Source: Lysobacterales bacterium (GTDB lineage Bacteria > Pseudomonadota > Gammaproteobacteria > Xanthomonadales > Marinicellaceae). From it: a stretch of 40,293 bases of DNA. The stretch is from assembly GCA_027067055.1 (NCBI GenBank), contig JAMOMK010000069.1, positions 1-40,293 on the forward strand, given 5' to 3'. The notes below the pieces were generated by a model that ran no database searches, had not been told where the DNA came from, and saw only the letters and a program-made list of their open reading frames with translations. The position numbers and the translations under genes are program-made. Shown here piece after piece: positions 9,171 to 32,070 of this stretch (positions are counted from its first letter, which is position 1; each line of letters starts with the position of its first letter).

Positions 9171-9842
9171 TTAACCGCGTTTACGCACAATCTGATAGCC
9201 TTTTCTAAACAAGTATTTACCTGGAGCACTCCATACGTGTACTAGTCTTGTAAATGGAAAAACTAGGAACATGGTGAGTCCGAGGAAAATATGTAGTTTA
9301 AAAATTAGTGGCTCCTCAAGAATATAAGCAGCGGCACCTGGTCTAAAGGTTACGATGTGCTGTGCCCAATTGGCTAAAGCTATCATTGATGATCCATCCA
9401 TGTGTTGTGCTGATGCTGGTAAGGTTAGTAAACCTAGACACAATTGCACAAACAACAATAATAGAATGAAGATATCAGAGAACTTTGTTGTTGCTTTGAT
9501 TCTTGGATTGGTTAAACGTCTGTGGATAAGGATAACCATGCCGATAAAGCATAGAGTTCCGAAAATTCCACCAGCTGTCATTGCCATAATCTGCTTTTGT
9601 TCTGCACTGATAAAGTGCTCATAAACACTGTGTGGCGTCAATAAACCTACCAAATGTCCAAAGAACAATAAGATTATACCCACATGAAATAAATTTGAAC
9701 CCACACGCATGCCTTTTGTACTTAACAATTGGCTGGATGAGGCTTTCCATGTGTATTGATCTCTATCGTAACGAAATAGGCTTCCAAGTAAAAACACTGT
9801 GGCAGCAATGTAAGGATATATTCCAAATAAAAATTCGTTCAT
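9171..9842 (-). CDS. narI: Respiratory nitrate reductase gamma subunit (cytochrome b)
   Basis: The 223-residue membrane anchor of NarGHI. It takes electrons from quinol at the periplasmic side and passes them through two b haems to NarH. Five hydrophobic segments are visible. Haem-ligand histidines lie in FHVGIILLFFGHLVGLLTPH (His53, His63) and in LHIFLGLTMFLVFPFTRLVH (His184, His202), the family pattern. The length matches E. coli NarI (225). A ribosome site AGGAG lies eight bases before the ATG, which overlaps the narJ stop by four bases, so translation is coupled. It is the last gene of the operon, followed by a REP unit and a strong terminator. Confidence 0.95.
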   Translation of the reverse strand: MNEFLFGIYPYIAATVFLLGSLFRYDRDQYTWKASSSQLLSTKGMRVGSNLFHVGIILLFFGHLVGLLTPHSVYEHFISAEQKQIMAMTAGGIFGTLCFIGMVILIHRRLTNPRIKATTKFSDIFILLLLFVQLCLGLLTLPASAQHMDGSSMIALANWAQHIVTFRPGAAAYILEEPLIFKLHIFLGLTMFLVFPFTRLVHVWSAPGKYLFRKGYQIVRKRG

Positions 9843-10549
9843 TTTATTGCTCCTGTCATAGTTGGTTCAGGCTGTGAATGTGGATTAGATGAGTGAATAT
9901 TCATCGCAATTTTTTGATGCAAGTAATCTTTTGATTTGAATAAATTCTTACCAAAAGCTTCTGGCTCAACCCAATCGGCATCAACATCAGTGAAAGTTTC
10001 TTCTTTCTCTGCTGCGACGATTTTTTTGATTTCTTTGCGATTAACTTTACCATCAGCTACTTCAATTAAAGCTGCAAATACATGCTTAAAATCAAGATCT
10101 TTTTTGGCGAGTCTTTCACGTATCAACATTAACACTTTTTGTGTTTCACCCAAGAAATGAGCGGCTACTTTAATATTTTGTGTTGATAAAAATTCAAGAA
10201 ATACAGGTAAATAATCAGGTAAATCTGATGTACCTACATCTAAACCATTGGCATTATACATCTCTAGCAAATCAATCATAGCCTGACCTCTATCACGAGA
10301 TTCGCCATGAATATGCTCAAACAAATGCAAAGAATGCGATGCGCCGCGATCAAATGTCGCAACGTATCGTTCTTGTAACTCAATTAAGTCTGTCGTTTTT
10401 AAACGTTCGATTAGTTCGCTTAAACCCTTAAGTTTTTGCTTTGAAAGTATTTTTTCTTGCAATAAAACCTGCTCTAATTCGTCGCAGTGTTCAATCCAAT
10501 CAGCTTGTGGATAGGAAAGTAACACACTTAACACTTTAAATGTTTTCAT
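9839..10549 (-). CDS. narJ: Nitrate reductase assembly chaperone (delta subunit)
   Basis: A 236-residue cytoplasmic chaperone of the NarJ/TorD type. It holds apo-NarG-NarH until the molybdenum cofactor and iron-sulfur centres are inserted, and is not part of the final enzyme. LSVLLSYPQADWI is the usual N-terminus, and SLHLFEHIHGESRDRGQAMI is the conserved centre. I prefer the ATG at 10549: TAGGAG ends nine bases upstream of it, whereas it directly touches the other in-frame ATG at 10558. With this choice the gene starts just after the narH stop (10551-10553). The acidic C-terminal tail varies in the family. Operon position H-J-I is standard. Confidence 0.93.
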   Translation of the reverse strand: MKTFKVLSVLLSYPQADWIEHCDELEQVLLQEKILSKQKLKGLSELIERLKTTDLIELQERYVATFDRGASHSLHLFEHIHGESRDRGQAMIDLLEMYNANGLDVGTSDLPDYLPVFLEFLSTQNIKVAAHFLGETQKVLMLIRERLAKKDLDFKHVFAALIEVADGKVNRKEIKKIVAAEKEETFTDVDADWVEPEAFGKNLFKSKDYLHQKIAMNIHSSNPHSQPEPTMTGAIK

Positions 10550-10550
10550 G

Positions 10551-12143
10551 TTATTCATCTCCTAATTTATTTAGTACATTATCACCTTGACCAACGACAT
10601 TACCACTCATGGTATTGGGTCGCTTAGTAGTATCGAAGATATTAAGTTTAATACTTTCTCCACTACCACCATGGCAACCGTTACCAAAACTAAAACCACA
10701 TGAGCCTTTATTTTCTGAAGCAATTTCATTATCAAAGGGTGTTGCCCCTGCGTATTCACGGTGATTGGTCGGAATCACAAATCTGTCTTCGTAATTTGCC
10801 AATGCGATAATACGGTACATGTCTTCCATCATAAATACATTTGCGCCATTTTCTTCAAGCATCTCTAAATCTGTTACACCTTCTACGGTTTTCTTACGCA
10901 TAAACTCACGTAGGACTATCATGCGTTTGAGGGCTTCTTCAACAGGCTTCTCTTCACCTGCTGTTAACATGTTTGCCAAGTATTTAACTGGAATACGTAA
11001 TTCGTCAAATTTAGGGAACATGCCATCAGATTGAATCTCACCTTTTTGCATCGCTGTTTTAATTGGCGATAAAGGTGGCATATACCAAACCATTGGTAAA
11101 GTACGGTATTCTGGATGCAGTGGTAATGCCACTTTCCATTCCATCGCCATTTTGTAAACTGGTGATTCTTTAGCCGCTTCTATCCACGATAATGGCACGC
11201 CATCTTTTAGGGCTTGTTTTTGCACTTCTGGATCATTTGGATCGAGGAACAAATCAAGCTGTGCTTGGTATAAGTCTTGCTCGTTTTCAACACTGGCTGC
11301 TTCTAATATCTTATCAGCATCATATAACATAACACCAAGGTAACGAATACGTCCAACACATGTTTCTGAACAAACTGTTGGTTCGCCTGCTTCGATACGT
11401 GGGTAACAGAAAGTACATTTTTCTGATTTGCCTGATTCCCAGTTGAAGTAAATCTTTTTGTATGGGCAACCCGATACACACATACGCCAACCGCGACATT
11501 TATCTTGGTCGATTAGGACGATACCGTCTTCTTCACGTTTGTAAATTGCACCTGATGGGCATGTTGCCACACACGATGGATTTAAACAATGTTCGCATAA
11601 ACGCGGAAGATACATCATGAATGTTTCTTCGAACTGTCCGTAAATTTCTTTCTCTATGTCTTTGAAATTGTAATCTTTTGAGCGTTTTGAAAATTCTCCA
11701 CCCAAGATTTCTTCCCAGTTTGGTCCTTTGTTGACCTTTTCCATAATCTCACCAGTAATAGCAGAGTGAGCTCTGGCTGTTGGTGGAGTTGGAAGTTCTG
11801 GTGCATTTTGCAAATGTGCATAATCAAAAGTAAATGGCTCGTAATAGTCATCAATCTGTGGCAAATCAGGATTAGCAAATATTTTACTTAATAATTTAAG
11901 CTTACCACCCATTTTTGGGATGATTTTACCACTGCCTGTACGTTGCCAACCACCATTCCAGCGTGCTTGGTTTTCCCAGTCATCAGGAAATCCAATACCT
12001 GGTTTTGATTCAACATTATTAAACCAGGCATATTCGACTCCTTCACGAGAGGTCCAAACATTTTTACACGTTACTGAACAAGTATGACAGCCAATACATT
12101 TATCCAAGTTTAGGACTTTACCAATTTGTGCTCTAATTTTCAT
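10551..12143 (-). CDS. narH: Respiratory nitrate reductase beta subunit (Fe-S protein)
   Basis: A 530-residue electron-transfer subunit with four iron-sulfur clusters that relays electrons from NarI to NarG at the cytoplasmic face. The cysteine groups are CIGCHTCSVTCKNVW (16-30), CEHCLNPSCVATCPSGAIY, CRGWRMCVSGCPYKK, and CTFCYPRIE followed by CSETCVGRIRYLG. The tryptophan in CRGW replaces a cysteine, as in E. coli NarH where this makes one cluster 3Fe-4S. Ribosome site GGAGG precedes the ATG, which overlaps the narG stop by four bases. The extreme C-terminus (SFGNGCHGGSGESIKLNIFD) is a low-conservation extension. All ligands look intact. Confidence 0.96.
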   Translation of the reverse strand: MKIRAQIGKVLNLDKCIGCHTCSVTCKNVWTSREGVEYAWFNNVESKPGIGFPDDWENQARWNGGWQRTGSGKIIPKMGGKLKLLSKIFANPDLPQIDDYYEPFTFDYAHLQNAPELPTPPTARAHSAITGEIMEKVNKGPNWEEILGGEFSKRSKDYNFKDIEKEIYGQFEETFMMYLPRLCEHCLNPSCVATCPSGAIYKREEDGIVLIDQDKCRGWRMCVSGCPYKKIYFNWESGKSEKCTFCYPRIEAGEPTVCSETCVGRIRYLGVMLYDADKILEAASVENEQDLYQAQLDLFLDPNDPEVQKQALKDGVPLSWIEAAKESPVYKMAMEWKVALPLHPEYRTLPMVWYMPPLSPIKTAMQKGEIQSDGMFPKFDELRIPVKYLANMLTAGEEKPVEEALKRMIVLREFMRKKTVEGVTDLEMLEENGANVFMMEDMYRIIALANYEDRFVIPTNHREYAGATPFDNEIASENKGSCGFSFGNGCHGGSGESIKLNIFDTTKRPNTMSGNVVGQGDNVLNKLGDE

Positions 12144-15100
12144 TTTGCACCTCCACTACGAGTATTTTCTGGCTCTGATTCATTTTTCCATTCTATATTT
12201 TTCATTTTTCTGACCACTACAAACTCATCACGGTTTGAACCAACTGTACCATAATAGTTGAAGCCGTAAGAGAGTTGTGCATAGCCACCAACCATATGTG
12301 TTGGTTTAATCACTGCTCGTGTTACTGAGTTATGAATACCACCACGGAAACCAGAGGTCTCAGTTGTTGGTGTATTTATAATTTTCTCTTGAGCATGATA
12401 CATCATTGTCATGCCTTCAGGAACACGTTGTGAAACTACAGCACGAGCTGCAATTGTGCCATTTACGTTATACAGTTCAAGCCAATCATTATCAACTACA
12501 TCCATCTTCTGAGCATCAATTTCTGATATCCAAACTATTGGGCCACCACGCGAGAGTGTTAACATCAACAGATTTTCTGAATAGGTTGAGTGAATTCCCC
12601 ACTTTTGATGTGGTGTAATAAAGTTAAGCGCAATTTCTTTATTGCCATTTGGCTTATGGCCTTTAATTGGCTCTACGGTCTTAGTGTTAACCGGTGGCTT
12701 ATAGACACATAAACTTTCTCCGAAATCTCGTAACCACTTGTGATCTTGGTAGAAATGTTGTCTACCAGTTAGGGTTCTCCAAGGAATCAATTCATGAATA
12801 TTAGTATAACACGCGTTATAACTGACATGCTCGTCCTCAAGTCCTGACCAAGTTGGAGAAGAGATAATCTTGCGAGGTTGAGCCTGAATATCATGGAAGC
12901 GAATCTTTTCATCCTCTTTAGGTTTAGCTAAATGCGTATGATCACGCCCTGTAATTTTACTCAGAGCTTCCCATGCTTTAACTGCAACCTGACCGTTAGT
13001 TTCTGGTGCCAATGACATAATCACTTCAGTTGCATTAATATCAGTCTCGATTTGAGGTTGATCTTTTGAAACACCCTCTTCGCGTACTTTTCTATTTATG
13101 CTACGAAGCATTTCAACTTCTTTATCTGTATTCCAAGAAATACCTTTACCGCCATTACCGAGTTTTTCAAGTAATGGCCCCACTGAAGTAAATTTCTTGT
13201 ACGTATTTGGATAATCACGCTCAACTTCAATTAAGGATGGCATGGTTTTACCTGGGATTGGATCACAATCACCGTTATACCATTCCTTGACTTCGGTTGC
13301 TTGTGCTAATTCACCTGGAGTATCGTGTTGCATTGGTAAGGTTACGATGTCTTTTTCCACACCTAAATGCCCAACACAAACCTCTGAAAATTTCTTAGCC
13401 AACCCTTTAAAGATTGCCCAATCAGACTTTGATTCCCAAGCGGGATCAACCGCTTTACTTAATGGATGAATAAATGGATGCATGTCTGAGGTATTCAAAT
13501 CATTCTTTTCATACCATGTTGCTGTTGGAAGCACAATATCAGAATACAAACAGGTCGTTGACATACGGAAATCTAAAGTGACAACCAAATCAAGTTTTCC
13601 TTCGACTGAATCTTCGTGCCATTTAACTTCTGTTGGTAGATCTTTACCCAATTTACCAATATCATCACCCATCACTGCATTTTGTGTTCCAAGTAGATGT
13701 TTAAGCATGTATTCATGCCCTTTACCTGAAGAGCCTAAGATATTTGAGCGCCATATAAACATATTACGTGGGAAGTTTTTAGGGTCATCTGGATCTTGAC
13801 AAGAAAACTCCAAATCTTTTGACTTTAATTGACTCACGACATAATCAGCTGATGACATTCCTGCTTCCTTAGCCCGTTTGGTTAATTCAATAGGATTTTC
13901 CTTAAATTGAGGAGATGAGGGTAACCAACCCATTTTTTCAGAACGAACATTGCAATCAATAAGTGAATATTTACTCCAGTCTTTTTTATCAGCAAGTGGT
14001 GAAATAAGTTCATCGACTTCTAATTTTTCATAACGCCATTGGTTAGCGTGATTGTAGAAAAATGATGTGCCATTCATGTGACGAGGTGGTCTGTGCCAAT
14101 CTGTGGCAAATGCTAATGGAATCCAGCCTGTTTGCGGACGTAATTTTTCTTGTCCTACATAATGAGCCCAACCGCCACCAGATTTACCAACACAACCACA
14201 CATCATAAGCATGTTCATAATGCCACGGTAGTTCATATCCATGTGATACCAATGGTTCATCGCTGCACCAATAATAACCATGGAACGCCCACGTGTTTTA
14301 TCCGCATTTTCAGCAAATTCTTTGGCTATTCTGATAACCGTATTGGCATCAACACCCGTGATTTGTTCTTGCCAACCTGGTGTATAAGGTTGATCATCTT
14401 TATAATCCTTAGCACAATTTTTATCGCCTAAACCACGATCTACACCATAGTTTGCCATCATTAAATCGAAAACAGTAGCAACATATTTGTCACCATCTTT
14501 AGTTTTGATTTTTTTAACAGGAATTTTGTGCTTTATAACATCATCGTGATCAGTGTGTTGGAAAATTTCTTGATCATGTTGTTTATTTGCAAAATAAGGA
14601 AATGAAACTTCAACAACTTCATCATGATTGTCAATGAGGGTTTTGACAGGCCAGATTTCCGATCCGCTGGTGTTGTCTTTAGTTTCTAGATTCCACTTCC
14701 CAGGTTCACCTTCTTTGCGGTCTTCCCAACGTGAGCCAATGGTTCCATTTGGGACGACAAGATTGTTGGTATTTTCATCGATTAAGACAGATTTCCATTC
14801 CGCTTTATCTTGTGAAGCCAGGTCTTTAATGTCACTGGCACGTAAAGTGCGCGTAGCAACCAAACCAGTTTCGTGTTCATCTAAACAAATCAAAAAAGGC
14901 ATATCCGTGTAAGTACGGCAATAATCATCAAAATATTGACTGACATTATCACGGTGATGCTCAGTTAAGATAACATGCCCCATTGCCATCGCTAATGCGG
15001 CATCAGTGCCTTGTCGTGCAGGCAACCATTCATCGGTTAGTTTTGCTACTTCTGAATAATCAGGAGTAACAGAAACAGTTTTTGTGCCTTTATATCGTGT

Positions 15101-15913
15101 TTCAGTAAAGAAGTGCGCATCTGGCGTACGTGTTTGAGGAACATTTGAACCCCAAGCAATAATATAAGAAGAGTTATACCAATCAGCACTTTCAGGAACA
15201 TCAGTTTGTTCTCCCCATGTTTGTGGAGAAGATGGTGGTAAATCACAATACCAATCATAAAAACTTAAACATGTTCCACCAATTAATGACAAATATCGAG
15301 AACCGGCAGCATAGGAAACCATGCTCATTGCAGGAATTGGTGAGAATCCAACGACTCTATCTGGGCCATACTCTTTTATGGTATGTACATTAGATGCAGT
15401 AATAATTTCATTGACCTCATCCCAGTCTGCACGAACAAAACCACCAAGACCACGAATTTGCTTGTAAGAATTTGTGTCTTCTTTATTATTCATAATAGAT
15501 TTCCAAGCCACAACAGGATCTGAGTGCTTGACTTTAGCCGCACGCCATAATCGCATTAAACGACCACGAATCATTGGGTATTTTAATCGTGTTGCCGAAT
15601 ATAAATACCATGAATAACTGGCCCCACGTGGGCAACCACGAGGTTCATGATTAGGTAAATCATCACGTGTTCGTGGATAGTTTGTTTGTTGTGTTTCCCA
15701 TGTGACTAATCCACGTTTAACGTAGATTTTCCATGAACACGAACCTGTACAGTTAACACCATGTGTTGAGCGCACTATTTTATCATGCGACCAACGGTTT
15801 CGATAAGCACGTTCCCAACCACGGTCTTCATCAGTAGTGATACCGTGACCATCTGCAAACGTTTCTGGACTTTTCTTAGTTAAATAAGTTAGCCTGTCTA
15901 AAAATTGACTCAT
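12140..15913 (-). CDS. narG: Respiratory nitrate reductase alpha subunit (Mo-bisMGD)
   Basis: The 1257-residue catalytic subunit that reduces nitrate to nitrite in the cytoplasm. The N-terminal FS0 cluster ligands are His51, Cys55 and Cys59 (HGVNCTGSCSWKIYVKRG) plus Cys94 (EPRGCPRGASYSWYLYS). The molybdenum-ligating aspartate is Asp224 in WYCDLPPSSPQTWGEQTDVP. The vestigial twin-arginine-like N-terminus is not an export signal. Length and motif positions track E. coli NarG (1247) within a few residues, so the enzyme looks complete. The molybdenum cofactor genes moeA and mobA lie in the divergent operon. The ATG has GAGGGG upstream. GTCATTCC repeats separate it from narK2. Confidence 0.97.
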   Translation of the reverse strand: MSQFLDRLTYLTKKSPETFADGHGITTDEDRGWERAYRNRWSHDKIVRSTHGVNCTGSCSWKIYVKRGLVTWETQQTNYPRTRDDLPNHEPRGCPRGASYSWYLYSATRLKYPMIRGRLMRLWRAAKVKHSDPVVAWKSIMNNKEDTNSYKQIRGLGGFVRADWDEVNEIITASNVHTIKEYGPDRVVGFSPIPAMSMVSYAAGSRYLSLIGGTCLSFYDWYCDLPPSSPQTWGEQTDVPESADWYNSSYIIAWGSNVPQTRTPDAHFFTETRYKGTKTVSVTPDYSEVAKLTDEWLPARQGTDAALAMAMGHVILTEHHRDNVSQYFDDYCRTYTDMPFLICLDEHETGLVATRTLRASDIKDLASQDKAEWKSVLIDENTNNLVVPNGTIGSRWEDRKEGEPGKWNLETKDNTSGSEIWPVKTLIDNHDEVVEVSFPYFANKQHDQEIFQHTDHDDVIKHKIPVKKIKTKDGDKYVATVFDLMMANYGVDRGLGDKNCAKDYKDDQPYTPGWQEQITGVDANTVIRIAKEFAENADKTRGRSMVIIGAAMNHWYHMDMNYRGIMNMLMMCGCVGKSGGGWAHYVGQEKLRPQTGWIPLAFATDWHRPPRHMNGTSFFYNHANQWRYEKLEVDELISPLADKKDWSKYSLIDCNVRSEKMGWLPSSPQFKENPIELTKRAKEAGMSSADYVVSQLKSKDLEFSCQDPDDPKNFPRNMFIWRSNILGSSGKGHEYMLKHLLGTQNAVMGDDIGKLGKDLPTEVKWHEDSVEGKLDLVVTLDFRMSTTCLYSDIVLPTATWYEKNDLNTSDMHPFIHPLSKAVDPAWESKSDWAIFKGLAKKFSEVCVGHLGVEKDIVTLPMQHDTPGELAQATEVKEWYNGDCDPIPGKTMPSLIEVERDYPNTYKKFTSVGPLLEKLGNGGKGISWNTDKEVEMLRSINRKVREEGVSKDQPQIETDINATEVIMSLAPETNGQVAVKAWEALSKITGRDHTHLAKPKEDEKIRFHDIQAQPRKIISSPTWSGLEDEHVSYNACYTNIHELIPWRTLTGRQHFYQDHKWLRDFGESLCVYKPPVNTKTVEPIKGHKPNGNKEIALNFITPHQKWGIHSTYSENLLMLTLSRGGPIVWISEIDAQKMDVVDNDWLELYNVNGTIAARAVVSQRVPEGMTMMYHAQEKIINTPTTETSGFRGGIHNSVTRAVIKPTHMVGGYAQLSYGFNYYGTVGSNRDEFVVVRKMKNIEWKNESEPENTRSGGAK

Positions 15914-16075: not shown

Positions 16076-17665
16076 CTAAGGGTTATGGTACTCACCACCC
16101 TTCCTCATATAATAGAACCAGTTAAGCACCAAACATACAGCATAGAAAATAGCAAACCCATACAATGCATATTGTGGAGTTGTTGCCTTAATTTGTTCGC
16201 CTAATATTTTAGGAATTAAGAAAGCTCCATAGGCAGCAATAGCAGCTGTCCAACCCAATACGGGACCAGCTTGTTCTTTATCAAATATTGTTGCAATGGT
16301 TTTAAAAGTTGAACCATTACCAATACCAGTTGCTGTAAACAAGATTAAGAACAGAATTAAAAATGGCACAAAGTAATCTTGTGGTGTTGCACTGGCATAA
16401 GCTAATTGCATGTAATAAGCCACACCGATTGCCGAACCAATCATCACAATTGAAACCCATTGTGTCACACGAGCCCCACCCAATTTATCAGCAATCATGC
16501 CGCCAACTGGTCTAATCAATGCGCCAATAAAAGGCCCCATCCATGCATACATTAAGGCACTTGGTCCATCAGGATTAGGCATATCATGAGTCATTCGACC
16601 TGCCGCATCAGCAATATGTTGATAACCAAATATAACTTTTATTGATAAACCAAAACCAACTGCATAACCAATAAATGAACCAAATGTCATGGTATAAATT
16701 ACAGTCATTACCCATGTGTGTTTATTTTTGAATATTTTGTATTGTCTTGTTAAGTTTTTACCAATTTCACCAGGAATAAATTTTAACAACATAACTGTTA
16801 GTACAATAACTATCGGTAATACAATAAACTTATCTAAACCAACATTCAATAATAAATACAAACCAAATGCTGCTGTACAAAGACCAATACCTAACATTAA
16901 TAAGATTTTAGCAAAAGCGGGGAATGGTGATGAAACATCAGGAGAGACGTGTTCATCACGAATATTATTCATACCAAACCACGTGGCAAATGCCAACGGC
17001 ACAAGCAATATTAACCACACGAAACCTGCGTTATGAATAAAAGTTTCTGTTCCTGCTGGAATCTTACCAACCAATGTCCCACTGGTTGTTTTTAAAATCA
17101 TTGGATCGCCACCAAATAAAGCAAATGTCATCACTAAAGGAATAACCACTTGCATTGTTGTGACACCAAAATTACCAAGCCCTGCATTCATACCTAAGGA
17201 ATAACCTTGAACTTTTTTAGGGTAAAAATAAGAAATATTACTCATCGATGATGAAAAATTACCACCACCAATTCCAGATAATAATGCCCACAATTGAAAT
17301 TGCCACATTGGTGTATCTTGTGATTGCAAAGCAAAACCAACACCCACCGCTGGTATCATCAATAAAGCTGTGGTTAAAAAGATAGTGTAACGCCCACCAG
17401 CAATACGAATAAAGAAGGTGGAGGGTATTCTTAATGTTGCACCCGATAGACCCGCAATCGCACCCAAGGTAAATAACTGTGATTTTTCAAATGGAAAACC
17501 TAGGTTCAACATTTGAATGGTGATAATACTCCAATACAGCCAAACAGCAAAGCCAGCTAATAAAGCAGGGATTGAAATCCAAAGATTTCGTGTGGCAATA
17601 CTTTTGCCGTAGGAGTTCCACTGCTGCTCGTCTTCAGGGTTCCAGTTTCTTAAGTCTTTAGCCAT
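16076..17665 (-). CDS. narK2: Nitrate/nitrite antiporter, NarK2-type
   Basis: A 529-residue major-facilitator transporter with about twelve membrane helices that exports nitrite in exchange for nitrate. The opening NWNPEDEQQW...IATRNLWISIPALL closely resembles E. coli NarK (DWRPEDPAFW...IASRNLWIS). Both nitrate signatures are present: GLSGATLRIPSTFFIRIAGG with the substrate arginine, and FGSFIGYAVGFG plus GALIRPVGGMIADKLGG with the second arginine. It is some 65 residues longer than E. coli NarK, mostly in loops near residues 180-215 and 340-370. Second gene of the operon; ribosome site AGAGGAG precedes the ATG. Confidence 0.92.
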   Translation of the reverse strand: MAKDLRNWNPEDEQQWNSYGKSIATRNLWISIPALLAGFAVWLYWSIITIQMLNLGFPFEKSQLFTLGAIAGLSGATLRIPSTFFIRIAGGRYTIFLTTALLMIPAVGVGFALQSQDTPMWQFQLWALLSGIGGGNFSSSMSNISYFYPKKVQGYSLGMNAGLGNFGVTTMQVVIPLVMTFALFGGDPMILKTTSGTLVGKIPAGTETFIHNAGFVWLILLVPLAFATWFGMNNIRDEHVSPDVSSPFPAFAKILLMLGIGLCTAAFGLYLLLNVGLDKFIVLPIVIVLTVMLLKFIPGEIGKNLTRQYKIFKNKHTWVMTVIYTMTFGSFIGYAVGFGLSIKVIFGYQHIADAAGRMTHDMPNPDGPSALMYAWMGPFIGALIRPVGGMIADKLGGARVTQWVSIVMIGSAIGVAYYMQLAYASATPQDYFVPFLILFLILFTATGIGNGSTFKTIATIFDKEQAGPVLGWTAAIAAYGAFLIPKILGEQIKATTPQYALYGFAIFYAVCLVLNWFYYMRKGGEYHNP

Positions 17666-17730: not shown

Positions 17731-19032
17731 TTAATTAATATGATCTAACTCTGGTAGATGTTGTGCGTTACGTAATTCAGGGTGTGCTCTTCGCTCTGCA
17801 CGTCTAATGGCAAAGTGCATCCATATCAATGAAACCGCAATAATAACAGATAACAACATAAAGCAACTTGTCCAAACACCGATGTGATCATTCATGATTC
17901 CGAATGTAATTGGTAAGATAAATCCACCCAATCCGCCAATTAAACCCACAATACCACCTACTGACCCAACATTGTCAGGAAAATAGTGTGGAATATGTTT
18001 ATAAACTGCTGCTTTACCCAGTGACATAAAGAAGCCTAAGATAATAGTCATACTCACAAATAACCACAAAGGGATAGTTAAATTAAATGCAATTGGTCCT
18101 TCAATGCCTTTCACCACATAATCAGTCGAAGGGTAAGACATAATGATTGTACAAATTAAAGTTACGCTAAATGTCCAGTACATAATGGTTCGCGCCCCAA
18201 ATTTATCTGACAACCAACCACCTAACGCTCTAAATACTGCACCAGGCAGAGCATAAGCTGCTGCCAACATACCAGCTGTTGCCAGTTCCAAACCATAAGC
18301 ACCAACATAATAACGAGGCAACCATAAAGCCAATGCCACATAAGCCCCAAATACAAAGAAATAATACAACGAAAAACGCCAAACAATTAAATGTTTAAGT
18401 GGCTTCATTTGCTCCATAAAAGGACGTGCTTTGCCTTTTGTACCCGTATGAGCTGGATCAGTTTTACTAAACAAGAAAAACAATACTGCAGTAATAGCTA
18501 AAACAGTCGCATAGACATAAACAACAGAGCGCCACTGACCTCCCATTGCCACCAACAAAATTGGTGCTCCAAAGTTAGTCACTGCTGCACCAACATTGCC
18601 TGCTCCAAAAATACCAAGAGCTGTGCCTTGCTTGTTATCTGGATACCAAGATGAAACATAAGCAATACCTACAGCAAATGAGCCTCCTGCCAATCCAAGA
18701 CCCAAGGCTCCAACCAAATACATAGGGTAAGTATGAGCATATGTTAGAAAAAAGGCTGCCAAAGCAGATGTAAGCATTTGTAAAGTAAAAACAATCCGAC
18801 CGCCGTATTGATCTGTCCAAATGCCTAAAAAAATACGACTTAATGAGCCAGTAAGAATTGGCGTTGCAACTAAAAGACCAAATTGAGTATCACTTAATCC
18901 CAATTCACCTTTAATTTTAATACCAATAATGGAAAAGATAGTCCATACAGCAAAACACACAGTGAATGCTAATGTACTTAATGTCAGCGCCTTGGTTTGT
19001 TCACTCTTGGGCACATTTTCTAAATTCTTCAT
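17731..19032 (-). CDS. narK1: Nitrate/proton symporter, NarK1-type
   Basis: A 433-residue major-facilitator protein with about twelve membrane helices, first gene of the nar operon. It brings in nitrate with protons to start respiration, before nitrite is available for exchange. GLLVATPILTGSLSRIFLGI and QYGGRIVFTLQ form the first nitrate-signature region, with the substrate arginine in LSRI. AYALPGAVFRALGGWLSDKFG holds the second. In Paracoccus the two NarK types are fused into one protein; here they are separate genes in the same order, as in Pseudomonas narK1K2GHJI. Ribosome site AGAGGT lies a few bases before the ATG. The FNR/Dnr box and -10 lie 50-90 bases upstream. Confidence 0.9.
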   Translation of the reverse strand: MKNLENVPKSEQTKALTLSTLAFTVCFAVWTIFSIIGIKIKGELGLSDTQFGLLVATPILTGSLSRIFLGIWTDQYGGRIVFTLQMLTSALAAFFLTYAHTYPMYLVGALGLGLAGGSFAVGIAYVSSWYPDNKQGTALGIFGAGNVGAAVTNFGAPILLVAMGGQWRSVVYVYATVLAITAVLFFLFSKTDPAHTGTKGKARPFMEQMKPLKHLIVWRFSLYYFFVFGAYVALALWLPRYYVGAYGLELATAGMLAAAYALPGAVFRALGGWLSDKFGARTIMYWTFSVTLICTIIMSYPSTDYVVKGIEGPIAFNLTIPLWLFVSMTIILGFFMSLGKAAVYKHIPHYFPDNVGSVGGIVGLIGGLGGFILPITFGIMNDHIGVWTSCFMLLSVIIAVSLIWMHFAIRRAERRAHPELRNAQHLPELDHIN

Positions 19033-19082: not shown

Positions 19083-19088
19083 ATTTTA
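19083..19088 (-). promoter_or_regulatory. -10 box of the nar operon
   Basis: On the minus strand this reads TAAAAT, one mismatch from TATAAT. Transcription would begin near 19076. The FNR/Dnr box centre (19116.5) then lies about 41 bases upstream, the class II activation distance. No proper -35 hexamer is present, as expected. Confidence 0.55.
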
Positions 19089-19109: not shown

Positions 19110-19123
19110 TTGATTGAAATCAA
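19110..19123. promoter_or_regulatory. Perfect FNR/Anr/Dnr box
   Basis: TTGATTGAAATCAA matches the consensus TTGAT-N4-ATCAA at all ten defined bases. It lies between the divergent narK1 (ATG at 19032) and the NIT-Crp/Fnr regulator (ATG at 19219), about 41 bases before the likely nar start. The candidate binding protein is the neighbouring regulator, whose recognition helix carries the E-x-x-S-R set of FNR; a global FNR encoded elsewhere is the alternative. Confidence 0.85.
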
Positions 19124-19218
19124 GTATTGACATTAATTGATTAAATTGTGTCTCATTATAACAATTGTACAGAGTTATCGGTAAAATAACCTTATTCTAA
19201 CTAATCTCTAATTTTTTA

Positions 19219-20727
19219 ATGAATCAACTTCTCATTCTATTGTGCCAATCCATTCATGCATTTCAAAAAGAACGTGGCAGTCTCTGTTTGTATTTATCCA
19301 CCAAAGATGAGTATAGCCTTAAGAAATTACTTCAGATAATTAAAACCAATGACTTGTTAGTTGAAGAAATATTGCAGTTTGCTCAACATGAAGGCAAAAA
19401 AATCAATGCTGAACAACGCAAAAGTTACAATAAGCTACAACAAATTTATGAGAACTTTAGCAGCAAAGCCCAATTTAGAGATAATATTCAACTAAAAGAC
19501 ATTGATATATTACAGACCACATCACTCTATACTTACAACCTTATAGTACACTTAAGCTATGTGTTAATAGAACTTGCCTTGTTTGATGAAAGTAATATTC
19601 CTGCAGAAATCTCCGCCTTATCTAACTACATCAACTGGAAGGAACGTATAGGTCGCGAAAGGGCTTTAGGGATTGTTGGCTTTGCTTTGAATGAGTTTAA
19701 TTCAGAACAATTTCGCCGTGATTTCAAAATATTACTTGGTGAACAAAACATCAATAAACGTTCATTTTTAGCACTGGCAAATGAACGTCAAAAGCAAGCT
19801 TTTGATAGTTGCTTTATTGTTAATAGAGATATTGAAGATGTTCACAAACAAATGGAGGCAGATAAAATTCCTCATGTTAATGCAAAAAACTGGTATGACA
19901 TGGTAACAGAAAAAATGGAAATGATGCATGTGATTGAACTCGCGATGATTAATCAATTGAATGATCAACCCCTCAATGAATCCCCCATGCAATGTTCAAT
20001 TCCACAGGAAGACCAAGCCGTGATATTAGACTTTCCTTTTTTTAGAAACTTATCGCAATCAACAGTTGATGAATTATTCAGACTCAGCAACATCAGAAGC
20101 TATAAAAAAGGGAGCTTATTATTTTTAGAAGGAGAACCTGCATCCCGTATTTATGTCATCTTATGTGGCTGGGTAAAAGTCTATAAAAGCACACCTGATG
20201 GCAATGAAACTGTGGAACAAATGTTATCTACTGGCAATTTAGTTATTGAGTCATCTATATTTACCAATGACAAACATTTTAGTAGTGCACAAATCAGTAA
20301 TGGAGCAAAACTGCTGTCATTTCCATCATCAATCTATAGAAATTTATTGAATAAAGACCTTGCATTAGCATTGAATTCCCTAAAATATTTGTCACAAACT
20401 TCTCGCAGCTACCTTAACCAAATCGACAATAATAAATTAAAATCTTCAAAAGAAAGAGTTGGGTGGTTTTTACTTAAACAATTTATCGAACAAAAAAACC
20501 CCAACACTATACTTCTCCCCTATGAGAAAACCATTATTGCCTCATTATTAGACATGAAACCAGAAACCTTTTCTCGCTCTTTAAAGTCTTTTAAAAACAG
20601 CGGGCTATCTTCAGAAAAGCACCAAATTCAAATTAAGGATATCAAAATGCTCTGCCATTATTGTGACGAGAACCTGTCTACTCATTGTCAATTTAAAAAC
20701 AACCATTCAGAATGCCGATTTAAATAA
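19219..20727 (+). CDS. NIT-domain / Crp-Fnr fusion transcription regulator
   Basis: A 502-residue fusion. Residues 1-245 resemble a NIT (nitrate- and nitrite-sensing) domain: an FQKERGSLCLYL opening (Arg19), a central NWKERIGRERALGIVGFALN (140-159), and a closing NWYDMVTEKMEMMHVIE. No membrane segment is seen, so it is cytoplasmic, as in NasR. Residues 272-400 are a cyclic-nucleotide-binding-type beta barrel (KKGSLLFLEGEPASRIYVIL, CGWVKVYKSTPDGNE) close to Dnr. A helix-turn-helix follows, with the recognition helix KPETFSRSL; Glu449, Ser452 and Arg453 match the FNR residues that read TTGAT. The tail has four cysteines (479, 482, 490, 499), while FNR's N-terminal cluster cysteines are absent. 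moeA starts one base after the stop. Target nar control is inferred from the box next door. Confidence 0.88.
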   Translation: MNQLLILLCQSIHAFQKERGSLCLYLSTKDEYSLKKLLQIIKTNDLLVEEILQFAQHEGKKINAEQRKSYNKLQQIYENFSSKAQFRDNIQLKDIDILQTTSLYTYNLIVHLSYVLIELALFDESNIPAEISALSNYINWKERIGRERALGIVGFALNEFNSEQFRRDFKILLGEQNINKRSFLALANERQKQAFDSCFIVNRDIEDVHKQMEADKIPHVNAKNWYDMVTEKMEMMHVIELAMINQLNDQPLNESPMQCSIPQEDQAVILDFPFFRNLSQSTVDELFRLSNIRSYKKGSLLFLEGEPASRIYVILCGWVKVYKSTPDGNETVEQMLSTGNLVIESSIFTNDKHFSSAQISNGAKLLSFPSSIYRNLLNKDLALALNSLKYLSQTSRSYLNQIDNNKLKSSKERVGWFLLKQFIEQKNPNTILLPYEKTIIASLLDMKPETFSRSLKSFKNSGLSSEKHQIQIKDIKMLCHYCDENLSTHCQFKNNHSECRFK

Positions 20728-20728: not shown

Positions 20729-22003
20729 ATGTCAATAAACAAACTCTTACCCTACTCCAGTGCTTTAGAAATGATTGAAAAGGTAGCGAATCAACATTCA
20801 ATCAATTTGAACCAAACATGCGAACTAGGAAATTCGACTAGTCGATTATTAGCAGAAGATATTTTCTCACCGATAAATGTACCCAGCTTCAACAATTCTG
20901 CTATGGATGGCTTTGCTGTACAAACACATATCGTAAATCAGGCAATTGAAAAATCAGGGAAAATTACCCTCAAAGTATCAGGCAGTATTCAAGCAGGTGA
21001 TTGCCAGGACATTAATGCAGGTTCGGAACATTTAGCATGGGAAATCATGACTGGGGCACCTGTTCCCAATTTATTTGATGGCGTCATTCAAATCGAAAAT
21101 GTGAGCATTAATGAAGTAGATGGCAATAAAACTATAACTCTGACCGAACCCGTGCAAAAAGGAAGAAATATAAGAAAATTGGGGACAGACTACAAAACCA
21201 ATGAAATTGTTGCTTATAAACATGCCATTATCCAATCTCAACATATTATGGCATTGGCAACGGTAGGAATTAAAAAAATTAACGTTATAAAAAAAGTTAG
21301 AATTGCCATTTTATCAACTGGTAATGAGCTAGCGAAGAAGTCTTCCACTTCATTAAATTCGGGTAAAATTTTCAATTCCAACCAACCATTTTTGAAGGCA
21401 TACTCGCAAAACCTCAATTGTGACCCAGTTTTTGTCGGCCGTTGCAATGATACTATTGAAGCTTTTAACGCTCTTATTGATGATGCACTGGAGGAGAAGG
21501 TAAAAATAATATTCTCAACAGGCGCAGTTTCAATGGGAAAATTTGATTTTATTCCACAAGCATTACTTGCTCGTGGTGCTAAAATTCATTTTCATAAGGC
21601 AAAAATACGCCCAGGGAAACCTATATTATTCGCCGAGTTACCCAATGGTGTCATTTACTTTGGTTTGCCAGGTAATCCAATAGCTGCTGCTGCAGGTATG
21701 CGGTTTTTTGTTTCACCATTTATTCGACAAATGCTTGGTTTACCACAAGAGAAAAGACTCAAAGCACAAGTTATGGCTGATATTTCAAAGAAAAAAGGGT
21801 TTCGTACATTTGCTAAAGCACTGGCTTTTGTTAATAATTCAGGAAAATTATGTGTTGAGATGTTAATGGACCAAGGCTCTTATCAATCTTGTTCATTTGC
21901 ACAATCCAATTGCTGGCTTATTCTGCCTGAAGAAAGTGAAAATATAAAAAAAGGTGAACTTATTGATGTTGCCCCAATGATTCCAAATCTAATGGTCCTG
22001 TAA
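20729..22003 (+). CDS. moeA: Molybdopterin molybdenumtransferase
   Basis: A 424-residue cytoplasmic enzyme that inserts molybdenum into adenylylated molybdopterin, needed for the NarG cofactor. Visible MoeA motifs are VPSFNNSAMDGFAVQ, WEIMTGAPVP, ILSTGNELAKK, STGAVSMGKFDFIPQALL and GKPILFAELPNG followed by FGLPGNPIAAA. I use ATG 20729, one base after the stop of the NIT-Crp/Fnr gene; the frame also runs 22 codons upstream inside that gene, but those residues do not look like MoeA. The last base of its stop codon is the first base of the mobA start, so the three genes form a tight operon of regulator and cofactor synthesis. Length is near the usual 400-410. Confidence 0.93.
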   Translation: MSINKLLPYSSALEMIEKVANQHSINLNQTCELGNSTSRLLAEDIFSPINVPSFNNSAMDGFAVQTHIVNQAIEKSGKITLKVSGSIQAGDCQDINAGSEHLAWEIMTGAPVPNLFDGVIQIENVSINEVDGNKTITLTEPVQKGRNIRKLGTDYKTNEIVAYKHAIIQSQHIMALATVGIKKINVIKKVRIAILSTGNELAKKSSTSLNSGKIFNSNQPFLKAYSQNLNCDPVFVGRCNDTIEAFNALIDDALEEKVKIIFSTGAVSMGKFDFIPQALLARGAKIHFHKAKIRPGKPILFAELPNGVIYFGLPGNPIAAAAGMRFFVSPFIRQMLGLPQEKRLKAQVMADISKKKGFRTFAKALAFVNNSGKLCVEMLMDQGSYQSCSFAQSNCWLILPEESENIKKGELIDVAPMIPNLMVL

Positions 22004-22551
22004 TGCCTCTTATTGCAGGAGTTATATTAGCAGGTGGTCAGTCATCACGAATGGGGGTGGATAAATCACAACTCACCTTTAAAAATCAAACCTTATTAGA
22101 AAGAGCACACAATCTACTTATTCAATCAAGCATTGAACCTGTTTTTATTAGCGGCCCTAATGGCATTCAAGATAGGTATAACAATATTGGTCCATTAGGA
22201 GGAATCCTTTCCTGTCTAACTCAATTAACCGAATATAACTATATACTTTTTACACCAGTTGATATGCCTTTGCTCAAAAAAGAGATACTTGAGAAATTAA
22301 TCCATAAAATGAGCTTAGATTTAAGTCATTTACAAAATCATAGATTTCCATTAATTTTAAAAAACACGGCACAGGTTAGAAAACTTATCCAAAAACAGAT
22401 AACTGACAATGTTTTGTCTTTGTATCAATTGTTTGAAAAAACAGAAGTCAATACTATTAAGCATCGTTTTGATAAGGCGCTTTTTCTTAATGCAAACTCA
22501 CCCAAACAGTGGCAAGATGCTAAGAAACGACTTCGATTACTAGAACCGTAA
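22003..22551 (+). CDS. mobA: Molybdenum cofactor guanylyltransferase
   Basis: A 182-residue enzyme that links GMP from GTP to molybdopterin, making the bis-MGD form carried by NarG. The N-terminal nucleotide-binding loop VILAGGQSSRMGVDKSQL is typical. GPLGGILSCL and the metal-binding FTPVDMPLL (the PCD-like aspartate) follow in order. It is a little shorter than E. coli MobA (194). The start overlaps the moeA stop by one base (TAATG). The 3' end overlaps the convergent phosphatase gene by 32 bases, so no terminator fits between them. Confidence 0.9.
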   Translation: MPLIAGVILAGGQSSRMGVDKSQLTFKNQTLLERAHNLLIQSSIEPVFISGPNGIQDRYNNIGPLGGILSCLTQLTEYNYILFTPVDMPLLKKEILEKLIHKMSLDLSHLQNHRFPLILKNTAQVRKLIQKQITDNVLSLYQLFEKTEVNTIKHRFDKALFLNANSPKQWQDAKKRLRLLEP

Positions 22552-24871: not shown

Positions 24872-25276
24872 ATGAAAGCAGGTGGCTTTATTCTGCGGTG
24901 GTTTTTTGCCGTCTTAATTGTTTTAATAACATATAACCCGACACATTACTCACTATTCCACTGGTTAATTCCTTTTGAAAATGTTCAACTGCCTTTAAAA
25001 ATATTAGCATCTCTGGTTATGCTAGTCATTTACATTATCTTCATTCGAGCCACATTTCGTTCAATTGGTGTTTTAGGCATTATTTTAGCAACAGCCGTTA
25101 GTTCTACCATCGTTTGGTTATTCATTGACCAAGGGTGGATGAGCCTTGAAAACAAGGCAGCTATAACTTGGATTGCACTTGTGGTTGTCGGGACTATTCT
25201 AGGGATTGGTATTTCATGGTCGCACATACGCAGAAAATTAACAGGACAATTAGACACAGATGATTTAGAGGATTAA
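24872..25276 (+). CDS. DUF6524 family integral membrane protein
   Basis: A 134-residue protein with four hydrophobic segments (about residues 6-22, 40-60, 66-86 and 98-116) and a short acidic cytoplasmic tail (LDTDDLED). The first loop has YNPTHYSLFHWL, a pattern I associate with the DUF6524 family. Nothing suggests a catalytic site. It is followed after two bases by the DUF6165 gene, so the two are almost surely co-transcribed. Function unknown. Confidence 0.7.
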   Translation: MKAGGFILRWFFAVLIVLITYNPTHYSLFHWLIPFENVQLPLKILASLVMLVIYIIFIRATFRSIGVLGIILATAVSSTIVWLFIDQGWMSLENKAAITWIALVVVGTILGIGISWSHIRRKLTGQLDTDDLED

Positions 25277-25278
25277 AA

Positions 25279-25671
25279 ATGAGCTTAATTAATACACCCG
25301 TTTCTTATGGTGAAATTTTAGATAAAATCACTATTTTAGAAATAAAAGAACAAAACATTACTGCCGCTGACAAACTTAAAAATGTTCGCCATGAACTATC
25401 CATTCTAACCAATACATGGAATGACAAAGTTACTGCTTCAGCTAAAATTGACCAACTTAAAGAACAACTTAAGCAGGTCAATCAAAGCTTATGGAATATT
25501 GAAGACAATGTTCGTATAAAAGAATCTAAAAAAGAATTTGATGATGAGTTCATCCAAATTGCACGCAGTGTATATTATGAAAACGATAAACGCGCAGCAA
25601 TAAAAAAAGAAGTTAATCTTCTACTGGGTTCAGAACTAGTCGAAGAAAAATCTTATGAGGGTTATAAATAA
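25279..25671 (+). CDS. DUF6165 family protein
   Basis: A 130-residue soluble, mostly helical protein. VSYGEILDKITILEIK at the N-terminus, KLKNVRHEL, LWNIEDNVRIKE and FIQIARSVYYENDKRAAIKK, then GSELVEEKSY, are the conserved blocks of DUF6165. The middle (residues 30-75) is strongly coiled-coil-like. The ribosome site AGAGGA lies inside the end of the preceding DUF6524 gene. Members of this family often sit near glycan or lipopolysaccharide genes, but no such genes are here. Function unknown. Confidence 0.75.
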   Translation: MSLINTPVSYGEILDKITILEIKEQNITAADKLKNVRHELSILTNTWNDKVTASAKIDQLKEQLKQVNQSLWNIEDNVRIKESKKEFDDEFIQIARSVYYENDKRAAIKKEVNLLLGSELVEEKSYEGYK

Positions 25672-26843: not shown

Positions 26844-29800
26844 TTATTTTTTTGTATAAGAATTGACTAACTTTACTAACTCATCCGACTTAATTGGCTT
26901 AAGAAAAATTTCACTAATGCCTATATTTTCACATTTTTTCACAATTGCATCATTAATATCACCTGTTAATAAAACAATATTTGTAGTTGGAAATTCCAAC
27001 AATATATACTTGGACATATCAATACCATTCATTTCTGGCATTGAATTATCAGTTAATACCAAATCATACTTATCTGGATTTTGAAAAAATAAATCAACCC
27101 CCTCTAGCCCATTTTTACCAACGTCATAACTAATATTATTTTCCTCAAAAATCAAACTTATTAACTCAATCAAAGATGATGAATCTTCAACCAATAAAAT
27201 ATTTTTAGCATTTTTTTCACTTACTCTCATCAGAGTATCTACTGTGGATTTTTTGGGTTGATGTTCAACTAGAGGCAATAATACAATAAAACTCATCCCC
27301 ATATTATCGTTAGATAACACTCTGATATGGCCATTCATTTTGTGTACATTGGTGTTAACGATATGTAAACCAATACCTGTACTTTCAGCACCAGAATTTG
27401 CACTAAAAAACGGCTTGAATATGTGTTCAAGTAAATCTTGATGTATTCCTCTTCCCGTATCTGAAATTACAATTTCCAAAAAAGTTTCTTGCAAAACTTG
27501 TTGGCAAGCAATGCATGAATCATGATTCTTTTTTTCTGTAAACCCAGTTGTTATTGTAATTTCACCATAATCACCACATGCATTTCGAGCATTAATTATT
27601 AAATTCAAGATGACTTGATTAAACTGGCTCAAATCAGCATTAATAAATGCAGGTTCTGTAGAAAAATTCATATTAAATTGAATAGTATTAGGAATTCCAA
27701 TTTTTATTAATGATAAAATATCTGATAACGCGTCGTAAACACAAAAGGTTTGGTTTTTATCATTGTCTTTACGAGTAAAATTCAGTAACTGACCAATCAC
27801 TTCTTTGCAATTTTCAGCAGTTAACAATATATTATTCAACCACTTAAGGTTTTCATACTGTTCAGTGCTATTTTTCTCTAAGTCTTTTCTTATTACTTCA
27901 GAGCCAATAAATATAACCGACAACATATTATTAAAATCGTGAGCTATTCCACTGGTTAACTGTCCAACAACTTCCATTTTTTGAGTTTCTTGCAGTTGTT
28001 TTTCTTTATCTAAAGTTATCAGCATTTGTCGCTCTAACTCTTTACTCTTAACCTCAATTTCATCATTCAAGACATCACGACTTTTTCTTTCTCTTTGTAA
28101 TTCTCTTTTTTGAACTTCTTTTAAGGATTGCGTTTTCTGCTCAACTAATTTGGTAAGTTTTTTAGTTTCTTTTTCATAGCGCCAACTTCTAAAATAATCA
28201 TTTATAAAATACAAACCAAGAAAAATTGAGCCTACCAAGAAAACAAACCATGACTTTTGATAGAAGTAGCTTGTCACAGTGAAATTTATTCTATTATTTG
28301 TACTGGTTATCCAATTCTTGCTGGAGCTTTTAACTTTTACTTCAAACTCATATTCTCCTGGCTCTATATTTGCATAAACAATGGCATTTTTATCAACAGA
28401 ACTGACGTAATTCCAGCGTTTTTCTACTCCATTCAACCTATATTTATACTCCAAAGGAATGAGTTCATTAAGTGATTCATTAGCAAATGTAAAATGGTAA
28501 GATCGATGACTTGGTGAAAACTCTAATTGTTTTGATTGCATTTCAATTTTTTCACCATCCACCTCTAAGCTCATAACCATATTTGGCGCTTCAAATAGTG
28601 ACTTTTTCTCCTTGGCATCAAATATTAGAATTCCATTTTTACATGTAAAAATCAATTTTCCAGATAAGTTTTTAGAAATAGAACCATGCCCACCATTACA
28701 TTCATTCTGATTTAAACCAGGAATTGCTAATATTTCAAACAATAGCGATTGTTTACCCGTGTAGTTTTTCCACCACTCTTCTCTGACACGAACAATTCCA
28801 TTTTCTCCAATTAACATTACATCATTAGTCATTGTCACTACAATATTATAGAAAGAAAACTGTGTTAACAGTTTATCAAGTGTAAAGCTTTGAATGCCTT
28901 TATTGTTTGCTTTTATCAATTGATTTTTTTTTGAATCGTAATACCATATAGCATCCTGAACACTATCATAAGCCAGTACTAAATTTGTTGGTTGAAGATT
29001 TTTTGTTATGGTGTTTTGAATAAATTTACCCTGTTGAAAAACATAAGCATTCTTATCTGTAACCATAAGAATTTCATTGTTTTTTAAAAGTAAAATAGTG
29101 CTTATCGATTCGTTGTTTGGCAATTCTAGCTTCTTAAAATATCCCATTTCATCCAAATTTTTATAAAACAACCCTTTTTCAGTGCCAACCCATAAATTAT
29201 TCTCAGCATCCCTTAATAAAAACTTATAGAATAAAGCATCAATATCATTAATTATTCTTGGGTTCTTTCCTAAAGCACCAAATAAAACTAAATCAGTCTT
29301 GTATGCAACCCATACACCGCCACCTAAACCTTTGGCAATATCGTAGACAGCAACACTTTCAACATCAGCTATATTAGGTGAAATTCTAACCCCTTGATGC
29401 ATAATACTAAGACCATTATATCCTCCAATCCATTTAGCATTATCCTCAGTCTCAAGATAACTATTTGCACTTATGTTAGATTTTATAAAATCAAATGGGG
29501 TGTTTTTAAGTCTAAAAAGCCCCTCACTCCATGTACCAAACCAAATATTGTTATATTTGTCCTCAACAATACCTCGTATACGTAAATCTTGATAATGAGG
29601 TAAATTAATATGCTTTAAGGTTTTATTCTTATAGATGAAGATGCCTTTGTTAGTCCCAAACCAAAGATAACCATTAGAATCTTCAAATACCATTCGTGCG
29701 GCAACTTGAATCTTTTCACTTTCCATTTTATTGGTTTTAGTATTGAATACAAATGTTCCTTTATTTGTATTAATCAACAACAACTTTTCTTTGGTTAAAT

Positions 29801-30428: not shown

Positions 30429-30470
30429 GAAATAGATCAATAAAATAAGAGCTAATTATACAATGAAAAT

Positions 30471-31678: not shown

Positions 31679-31680
31679 AT

Positions 31681-32070
31681 ATGACTTCTATAGATGATAA
31701 AATTAAACAGGCATTAAACGAGGAGTTTAATGATATTGTAGATAATAATGAAAAACTTAATTCAAGCTTTTACAAGCAGTTTATAGCTGGTTTTAAAGGT
31801 AAAAATAAAAGAATTTATAAACTTGGGTATTTTATTGTTCTAATTATGTATATTGCCTGCGCTTATAGCATATATAAATTTGTAAACTACCCAAGCGATG
31901 AAATAAAATTTCTGTTGAGTTCAGCTGTTTCAAGTCTTTTCTTTGGAATGGCAGCATTGATTGGTGAATCTTGGTTTTATAACGAACTAGGAAGAGACAA
32001 AGTCATGCGGGAAATAAAAATAGTCGAATTGCAATTGGCTCAAGTGCTTAAAAATCAAGAAAAGGAATAG
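31681..32070 (+). CDS. DUF6768-like membrane protein, candidate anti-sigma
   Basis: A 129-residue protein with a charged N-terminus (IDDKIKQALNEEFNDIV), two hydrophobic segments (about residues 47-66 and 78-95) and a helical tail (REIKIVELQLAQVLKN). The pattern DDKI-x-x-ALN-E at the start and REIK-x-x-ELQ-x-A at the end fits DUF6768. Members of that family follow ECF sigma genes. Its position three bases after the sigma gene, ribosome site GGAG in the gap, suggests it binds that sigma factor at the membrane; this is inference. It converges with the next gene with one base between stops. Confidence 0.65.
   Translation: MTSIDDKIKQALNEEFNDIVDNNEKLNSSFYKQFIAGFKGKNKRIYKLGYFIVLIMYIACAYSIYKFVNYPSDEIKFLLSSAVSSLFFGMAALIGESWFYNELGRDKVMREIKIVELQLAQVLKNQEKE

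Follow-up and report, generated by a model that had tools for sequence, protein, structure and literature searches.

How a set of nitrate reductase genes could be governed by nitrate where the NarXL route appears to be missing is the question raised by a 40,293-nucleotide stretch of DNA (hereafter the window; contig JAMOMK010000069.1 of the Lysobacterales assembly GCA_027067055.1), in which a regulator here termed NIT-CRP stands back to back with a narK1K2GHJI cluster. Judged from its sequence, NIT-CRP is probably a cytosolic one-component protein that activates nar in response to nitrate or nitrite and takes a further, metal-based input. In its domains, the conservation of its motifs, its gene order, and the presence and position of a palindromic box beside it, the architecture of this protein together with its context is a conserved unit, and a nitrate-switch function is plausible. 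The sequence-only reading of this DNA had proposed control without NarXL, a view supported by a search of the genome with one family (PF13675, positive on an Escherichia coli control), which returned no NarX/NarQ-type sensor above the cut-off; two matches below it, separated by about 350 bases, are located in 673-residue frames on a single contig.

Domain architecture of NIT-CRP

The open reading frame (ORF) at 19219-20727 on the plus strand encodes a 502-residue protein in which, as had been proposed, a NIT domain is fused ahead of a one-component Crp/Fnr regulator. Hidden Markov model (HMM) searches place all three Pfam domains above their cut-offs: NIT (E=1.3e-24, 88.3 bits against a cut-off of 24.9, covering model positions 3-238/239), cNMP_binding (E=4.7e-16, 59 bits) and the helix-turn-helix (HTH) family HTH_Crp_2 (E=2.4e-10, 40.6 bits). 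No further Pfam domain, ANTAR included, was matched at E up to 1. The parts of the gene are as follows.

19219-20727, plus strand: NIT-CRP gene, an ORF of 502 amino acids with full-length relatives
19252-19959, plus strand: NIT domain (PF08376), residues 12-247, with motifs Q16-x-x-R19 and G145-x-x-R148
20095-20358, plus strand: cNMP-binding-type beta-barrel (PF00027), residues 293-380
20452-20658, plus strand: Crp-type HTH (PF13545), residues 412-480, with recognition motif PETFSR at 448-453
20653-20715, plus strand: four-cysteine (Cys4) motif C479-x2-C482-D483-x6-C490-x8-C499, invariant in 29 of 29 sequences; a predicted, probable metal site

A spurious HMM match to NIT is ruled out by the E-value and by the recurrence of the domain in distant relatives (loci L134 and L135). 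NIT-CRP holds the sole NIT match of the 3.4 Mb genome in a search at E up to 0.001. The NIT part is under purifying selection: by the NG86 method, the ratio of nonsynonymous to synonymous rates (dN/dS) is 0.058-0.110 for this part and 0.014-0.045 for the CRP part (six pairs from four close orthologs, with several dS values saturated). An AlphaFold2 model built from an alignment of NIT-CRP and three orthologs reached a mean predicted local distance difference test score of 36.5 and a predicted template modelling score of 0.22, and was not used.

The best PDB matches of the CRP half are 3fx3 (E=2e-28) and its near twin 3h3z, followed by DNR (3dkw, E=3.8e-21), and the NCBIfam FtrB model matches at E=1.2e-35, below its cut-off. 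The protein is not FNR proper, an identity ruled out by the lack of an N-terminal C-x2-C-x5-C and by a score of 36 bits against the NCBIfam Fnr cut-off of 228. The genome encodes a separate FNR-like protein with an N-terminal C-x2-C-x5-C (197.5 bits, likewise below 228), a CRP that scores above its cut-off, and a Dnr-like regulator. At L160 (6402-9294), the gene of the latter and that of a cytochrome cd1-type nitrite reductase (PF02239, E=7.5e-151) point toward each other.

Conservation of the locus and distribution

The back-to-back position with narK1K2GHJI is borne out by the gene assignments; the six nar genes follow one another on the minus strand, leftward from 19032. On the other side, the ATG of moeA (20729) lies one base past the NIT-CRP stop, and that of mobA (22003) overlaps the moeA stop by one base.

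17731-19032, minus strand: narK1 transporter (matches the NarK family with a score under its cut-off)
16076-17665, minus strand: narK2 transporter (matches the NarK family with a score under its cut-off)
12140-15913, minus strand: narG (TIGR01580, 2194 bits, above cut-off)
10551-12143, minus strand: narH (TIGR01660, 914 bits, above cut-off)
9839-10558, minus strand: narJ (TIGR00684, 114.7 bits, above cut-off)
9171-9842, minus strand: narI (PF02665, E=1.9e-81)
20729-22003, plus strand: moeA (MoeA_N, MoCF_biosynth and MoeA_C domains)
22003-22551, plus strand: mobA (NTP_transf_3, MobA-like)

NIT-CRP is rare yet present across three lineages, as judged from counts in genome samples together with follow-up in two further groups. 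The samples were even draws from larger groups and are incomplete, and in the large ones only a part of the first-look candidates of each genome was scored. Among 61 genomes of relatives, a full-length NIT-CRP occurs in nine, all from two genera of the window's family, and two others (G002 and G007) carry C-terminal fragments that lie at or close to the end of a contig. The order sample (299 genomes) yielded 10 NIT-CRPs from two genera, nine of full length and one fragment; the class sample (369 genomes) yielded only the window's own; and the phylum sample (398 genomes) yielded three of full length, two of them (in genomes G731 and G782) outside the window's class. The family of G731 carries NIT-CRP in 12 of 29 genomes (four of nine genera) and the order of G782 in eight of 200 (four of 41 genera). 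The resulting set of 29 full-length sequences (9 + 12 + 8) is the basis of the counts below; the other 28 share 28-89% identity with the window protein. A tblastn search of plasmids with NIT-CRP matched 392 records, none covering at least 80% of the query.

A survey of this domain order next to nar genes gives a uniform picture, narK being divergent from NIT-CRP in the gene maps of all 29 loci. At L172-L174, the narK1 match that bounds the intervening region is weak (23-26% identity), though both narK and narG appear in the gene maps of these loci. Genes recognised as those of the molybdenum cofactor (moaA, moeA, mobA and others) lie downstream on the same strand as NIT-CRP in 21 of the 29: all nine loci of the window's family, both L134 and L135, and 10 of the remaining 18. 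Two (L170, L175) of the eight loci without them end soon after NIT-CRP. Within the window's family, NarG is found in 11 of 33 genomes, 10 of which carry NIT-CRP (eight full length, two fragments), while 21 have neither; in one further genome (G006), NIT-CRP is present with narK at the contig edge and NarG was not found. The eleventh NarG genome (G011, locus L141) has a short NIT-less Crp/Fnr protein beside narK instead of NIT-CRP, divergent from a 903-residue narK ORF and narGHJ in a NarR-like arrangement. The length of this narK ORF suggests that it is perhaps fused.

In a tree of NIT domains, 11 from NIT-CRPs (nine from the window's family, one from G731 and one from G782) split from 48 others with support 100/98. 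None of these 48 other NIT ORFs carries a CRP part (two are identical, and the best-scoring or short frames were taken, a biased pick); the ORFs checked came from among the matches listed, NIT itself being present in 141 of the 398 genomes of the phylum sample. In a tree of CRP parts, the CRP halves of the NIT-CRPs group with a NIT-less protein (L136) in one clade (100/97), and the sampled Dnr-like proteins lie outside it. The earlier label "Dnr-like" is therefore loose: membership in the Crp/Fnr family stands, whereas the NIT-CRPs belong to a clade apart from the genome's own Dnr-like protein. Both trees are unrooted, with long branches flagged by the program, and cover the NIT-CRPs known before 18 later sequences were found. 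Their topology would agree with a fusion that arose once and then spread along with the nar cluster, or with L136 having lost its NIT.

The palindromic box and the narK1 promoter

The intergenic region contains, as the sequence-only reading had noticed, a perfect TTGAT-N4-ATCAA box, and the E-x-x-S-R set that it had recognised in the HTH is equally well founded, the recognition helix PETFSR being invariant in all 29 NIT-CRPs. Three elements are placed here.

19110-19123, no strand: FNR-type palindrome TTGATTGAAATCAA, the sole perfect TTGATN4ATCAA in the window
19083-19088, minus strand: probable narK1 -10 element TAAAAT, 21 nucleotides (nt) from the box; class II geometry
19182-19187, plus strand: possible NIT-CRP operon -10 element TAAAAT, a promoter-like match at background rate

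One perfect box is observed in the window against 0.15 expected, and 23 of 20,000 dinucleotide shuffles of the 186-bp intergenic region contain one. Between narK and the NIT motif, a perfect TTGAY-N4-RTCAA recurs in 28 of 29 regions and was not found in that of L176; each region was bounded by the start of the narK match and the QxxRG motif of NIT and so takes in a little coding sequence. In shuffles of single regions, a box arose with a frequency no higher than 0.01 (300 dinucleotide and 500 single-base shuffles each). Chance occurrence of the box is ruled out by the shuffles of the intergenic region and the presence at 28 of 29 loci. At L135 and L177, three FNR-type boxes lie in a single nar/NIT-CRP intergenic region.

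A class II position is one in which the box lies near -41 of the promoter. The box is placed near -41 of a narK1 promoter by the spacing of 21-22 nt to the -10 element in the window's family, where TAAAAT or TAGAAT follows 21 nt from the box toward narK1 in seven of nine loci and CAAAAT at 22 nt in two. It is this conserved spacing that carries the class II assignment, and not the promoter scan, which found two matches with 2.0 expected and is uninformative by itself. A CAnnnT hexamer 22 nt from the box toward narK, perhaps a weak -10, is also seen at eight loci that do not belong to the window's family (L134, L161-L163, L165 and L169-L171), as in L032 and L033.

The sequence-only reading had further proposed that transport, reductase and cofactor genes are switched on together. 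For narK1, the class II geometry agrees with this proposal; the cofactor side is weak, since some 78 bp separate the box centre from the likely start of the regulator/moeA/mobA unit, and joint activation of moeA and mobA by the box is not supported. An AAAAT element like the regulator-side -10 is seen by eye in the majority of orthologs but not in every one. At L135, an AT-rich hexamer on the regulator side follows one of the boxes after 21 nt (by eye), which suggests autoregulation.

The NIT domain as a candidate nitrate receptor

The window protein has the NIT-site motifs Q16-x-E-R19 and G145-x-E-R148, of which Q16, E18, R19, G145 and R148 are shared by all 29 NIT-CRPs and E147 by 28. A profile of the NIT part from nine orthologs matched NasR (4akk) alone among PDB entries at E up to 0.01 (E=1.2e-12), and the N-terminal 130 residues alone gave only PDB matches with E of 0.2 or worse, NasR not among them. 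In the alignment, E175 and R176 of NasR correspond to E147 and R148 of NIT-CRP (4akk chain number = NasR + 27, by our own count), and these two NasR residues are located in its predicted nitrate pocket according to passages of PMC7496416. The G-x-x-R sequence is described in the relevant part of a review (PMC8199190) as the nitrate-binding motif of NarX/NarQ-type kinases; the same part states that NasR keeps both arginines and has one glycine replaced by glutamine, a variant that matches the Q-x-x-R/G-x-x-R pair of NIT-CRP. These parallels suggest nitrate or nitrite as the ligand.

The C-terminal Cys4 tail

The sequence-only reading had overlooked the C-terminus, which is the more novel part of the protein; the NIT and Crp/Fnr domains are each of known kinds. 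All 29 NIT-CRPs end in the invariant motif L-C-x-[YF]-C-D-x6-C-x7/8-C. Among the 55 residues invariant across the set, five fall in the last 24 (C479, C482, D483, C490 and C499), and the only other cysteines of the window protein (9, 23, 198, 259 and 316) include none kept in all 29. Neither the Dnr-like nor the FNR-like protein of the genome ends in such a Cys tail. A search of open-licence full text for such a tail found no paper.

The positional likeness to the C-terminal cluster site of Bacillus Fnr argues for a metal site at the tail, where an iron-sulfur (Fe-S) cluster appears likelier than zinc. The tail may predate the NIT fusion or have arisen separately from it, because the NIT-less Crp/Fnr protein of the same CRP clade (L136, 9634-10362, in G775) has the same Cys4 tail. 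Genes near L136 look by eye like those of a cytochrome cbb3 oxidase (ccoG/ccoN-type). Two other Crp/Fnr proteins (L097 and L098, in G707 and G759) have a shorter C-terminal C-x2-C-x5-C and lie beside the NIT-CRP clade with weak support (86/40).

Comparison with known systems

By published description, the closest analogue of NIT-CRP is NarR of Paracoccus, a Crp/Fnr-type, nitrate/nitrite-responsive activator of nar that serves where NarXL is lacking, as related in passages of PMC3541799, PMC6618116 and PMC8139620. The two are alike as Crp/Fnr-type proteins, one controlling nar and the other encoded beside it, a comparison made from these descriptions and not from the NarR sequence. NarR counts among the Crp/Fnr regulators without Fe-S. 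NarR is called a nitrate/nitrite sensor in those passages, which mention no receptor domain, whereas NIT-CRP has a fused NIT and the Cys4 tail. The 233-residue NarR-like protein beside narK of G011 is without NIT and without the Cys4 tail, in contrast to NIT-CRP, which has both. In Bacillus Fnr, a [4Fe-4S] cluster is held by a C-terminal C-x2-C-x4-C plus an aspartate (PMC3520743, in part), and the B. subtilis protein controls narGHJI (PMC8139620, in part); in the B. subtilis and B. cereus proteins so described, the cysteine motif lies C-terminal to the HTH, as in NIT-CRP.

NasR, a NIT-ANTAR antiterminator, is likewise a one-component protein with a homologous NIT; its output is RNA binding by ANTAR, whereas that of NIT-CRP is predicted to be Crp-type DNA binding. 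DNR and FtrB-type regulators share the CRP-half matches with NIT-CRP and are without NIT. DNR senses nitric oxide (NO) through haem in its Crp-type sensor domain. Bacillus Fnr is not known to have a NIT domain.

No NIT-Crp/Fnr fusion is described in the titles and abstract openings of the papers listed from open-licence full text, with InterPro architecture pages and subscription journals lying outside the search. A table of kinase input domains in PMC4618731 has NIT and cNMP_binding in separate rows, with NIT in one histidine kinase, and the word Crp is absent from PMC1592074, which names NIT. According to the methods excerpt of PMC9603854, a published CRP/FNR similarity network was limited to proteins of 190-280 residues with a single cNMP domain and HTH, a filter that would exclude proteins of the length of NIT-CRP.

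Proposed mechanism and alternative explanations

From these features we infer a ligand, a cluster, DNA binding and a direction of control as follows. Q16/R19 and G145/R148 would be the residues through which the NIT domain takes up nitrate or nitrite, the bound ligand would release or order a Crp-type dimer, and the dimer would occupy the TTGAT-N4-ATCAA box, around -41 in the narK1 promoter, where RNA polymerase would be recruited in class II fashion. The Cys4 tail beside the HTH would hold a metal centre, likelier an Fe-S cluster labile to O2 or NO than structural zinc, and the second input from this centre would confine nar expression to conditions combining nitrate with low O2. It is possible, with the balance tilting slightly against, that NIT-CRP represents an undescribed class of Crp/Fnr proteins: a one-chain AND gate in which a NIT receptor and an O2/NO-labile Fe-S Cys4 centre both govern a class II nar promoter. 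Such a protein would do alone the work of NarXL plus FNR, or of NarR plus FnrP. In NIT-CRP, the receptor-type domain is explicit and fused and the likely target promoter is adjacent; the 29 sequences supply invariant residues for mutation, and the Cys4 tail makes the integration of nitrate and oxygen testable in a single protein.

Several observations weigh against a nitrate-responsive activator of this design. In an NIT alignment that includes 50 rows from outside the window's family, two of which are NIT-CRPs, Q16, G145 and R148 occur in 59 of 59 sampled NIT domains and R19 in 58, the remaining one being truncated; because they are found in every NIT sampled, these motifs do not prove nitrate binding. 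The NIT domain of PA4520 binds neither nitrate nor nitrite, as reported in the relevant passages of PMC6381276. The C-x2-C-x4-C and distant aspartate described for Bacillus Fnr resemble the C-x2-C-x7-C-x7/8-C of NIT-CRP in position, not in spacing. Outside the window's family, TATAAG or TATAAA follows the box after 21 nt in only three of 19 boxed loci (L135, L177 and L178, measured from the box nearest narK1), and the remaining 16 have no TAnnnT at 21 or 22 nt, the weaker CAnnnT at 22 nt being frequent. The genome's FNR-like and Dnr-like proteins both have an E-x-x-S-R helix and could use the same box, and TTGAYN4RTCAA sites number 77 genome-wide against 21 for the reversed control.

The tail need not carry a signal. 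It is unlikely, though worth serious consideration, that NIT alone reads nitrate, with the four cysteines holding structural zinc and the genome's FNR reading oxygen at this box or elsewhere, a division of work like that of FnrP and NarR in Paracoccus. The separate FNR-like protein with its N-terminal C-x2-C-x5-C suits this explanation, as does the dual control of nar reported for FnrP and NarR in a passage of PMC3541799. The invariant aspartate directly after the second cysteine speaks against a zinc site. So does the spacing C-x2-C-x7-C-x7/8-C, which is not known as one of the common zinc patterns with paired CxxC. Less probable still is that FNR or Dnr of this genome binds the box, with NIT-CRP acting at other sites or on its own operon only: both proteins exist in this genome, and the Dnr-like one has PETFSR as well, whereas the box recurs beside NIT-CRP in 28 of 29 loci, a recurrence that does not separate NIT-CRP from FNR because FNR is common too. 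The least probable of these alternatives holds that the NIT part binds another ligand or has lost binding, serving as a dimerisation or partner-binding module, with the nar linkage reflecting a metabolite or redox signal. The faster evolution of the NIT half (dN of 0.080-0.091 against 0.033-0.043 for the CRP half, window against three orthologs) would be in line with this, but nar linkage in 29 of 29 loci over three lineages and the invariance of the nitrate-site-type residues argue against it.

Other features of the window

Downstream of mobA, genes for DUF6524 and DUF6165 proteins (24872-25671) stay near a PP2C gene and a lytic-transglycosylase-like gene (by eye), 3' of mobA, in several orthologous loci. 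A 1198-residue Reg_prop/Y_Y_Y hybrid histidine kinase with a receiver domain is encoded at 26847-30440, its HisKA part being below cut-off. An extracytoplasmic function sigma factor followed by a DUF6768 protein (31163-32067) may form a sigma/anti-sigma pair, and a PaaA_PaaC-family protein with a Fer2/FAD/NAD reductase (33411-37162) may belong to a phenylacetate catabolism cluster. Near the other end of the window, a 170-residue ORF (507-1016) carries the transposase domain DUF772.
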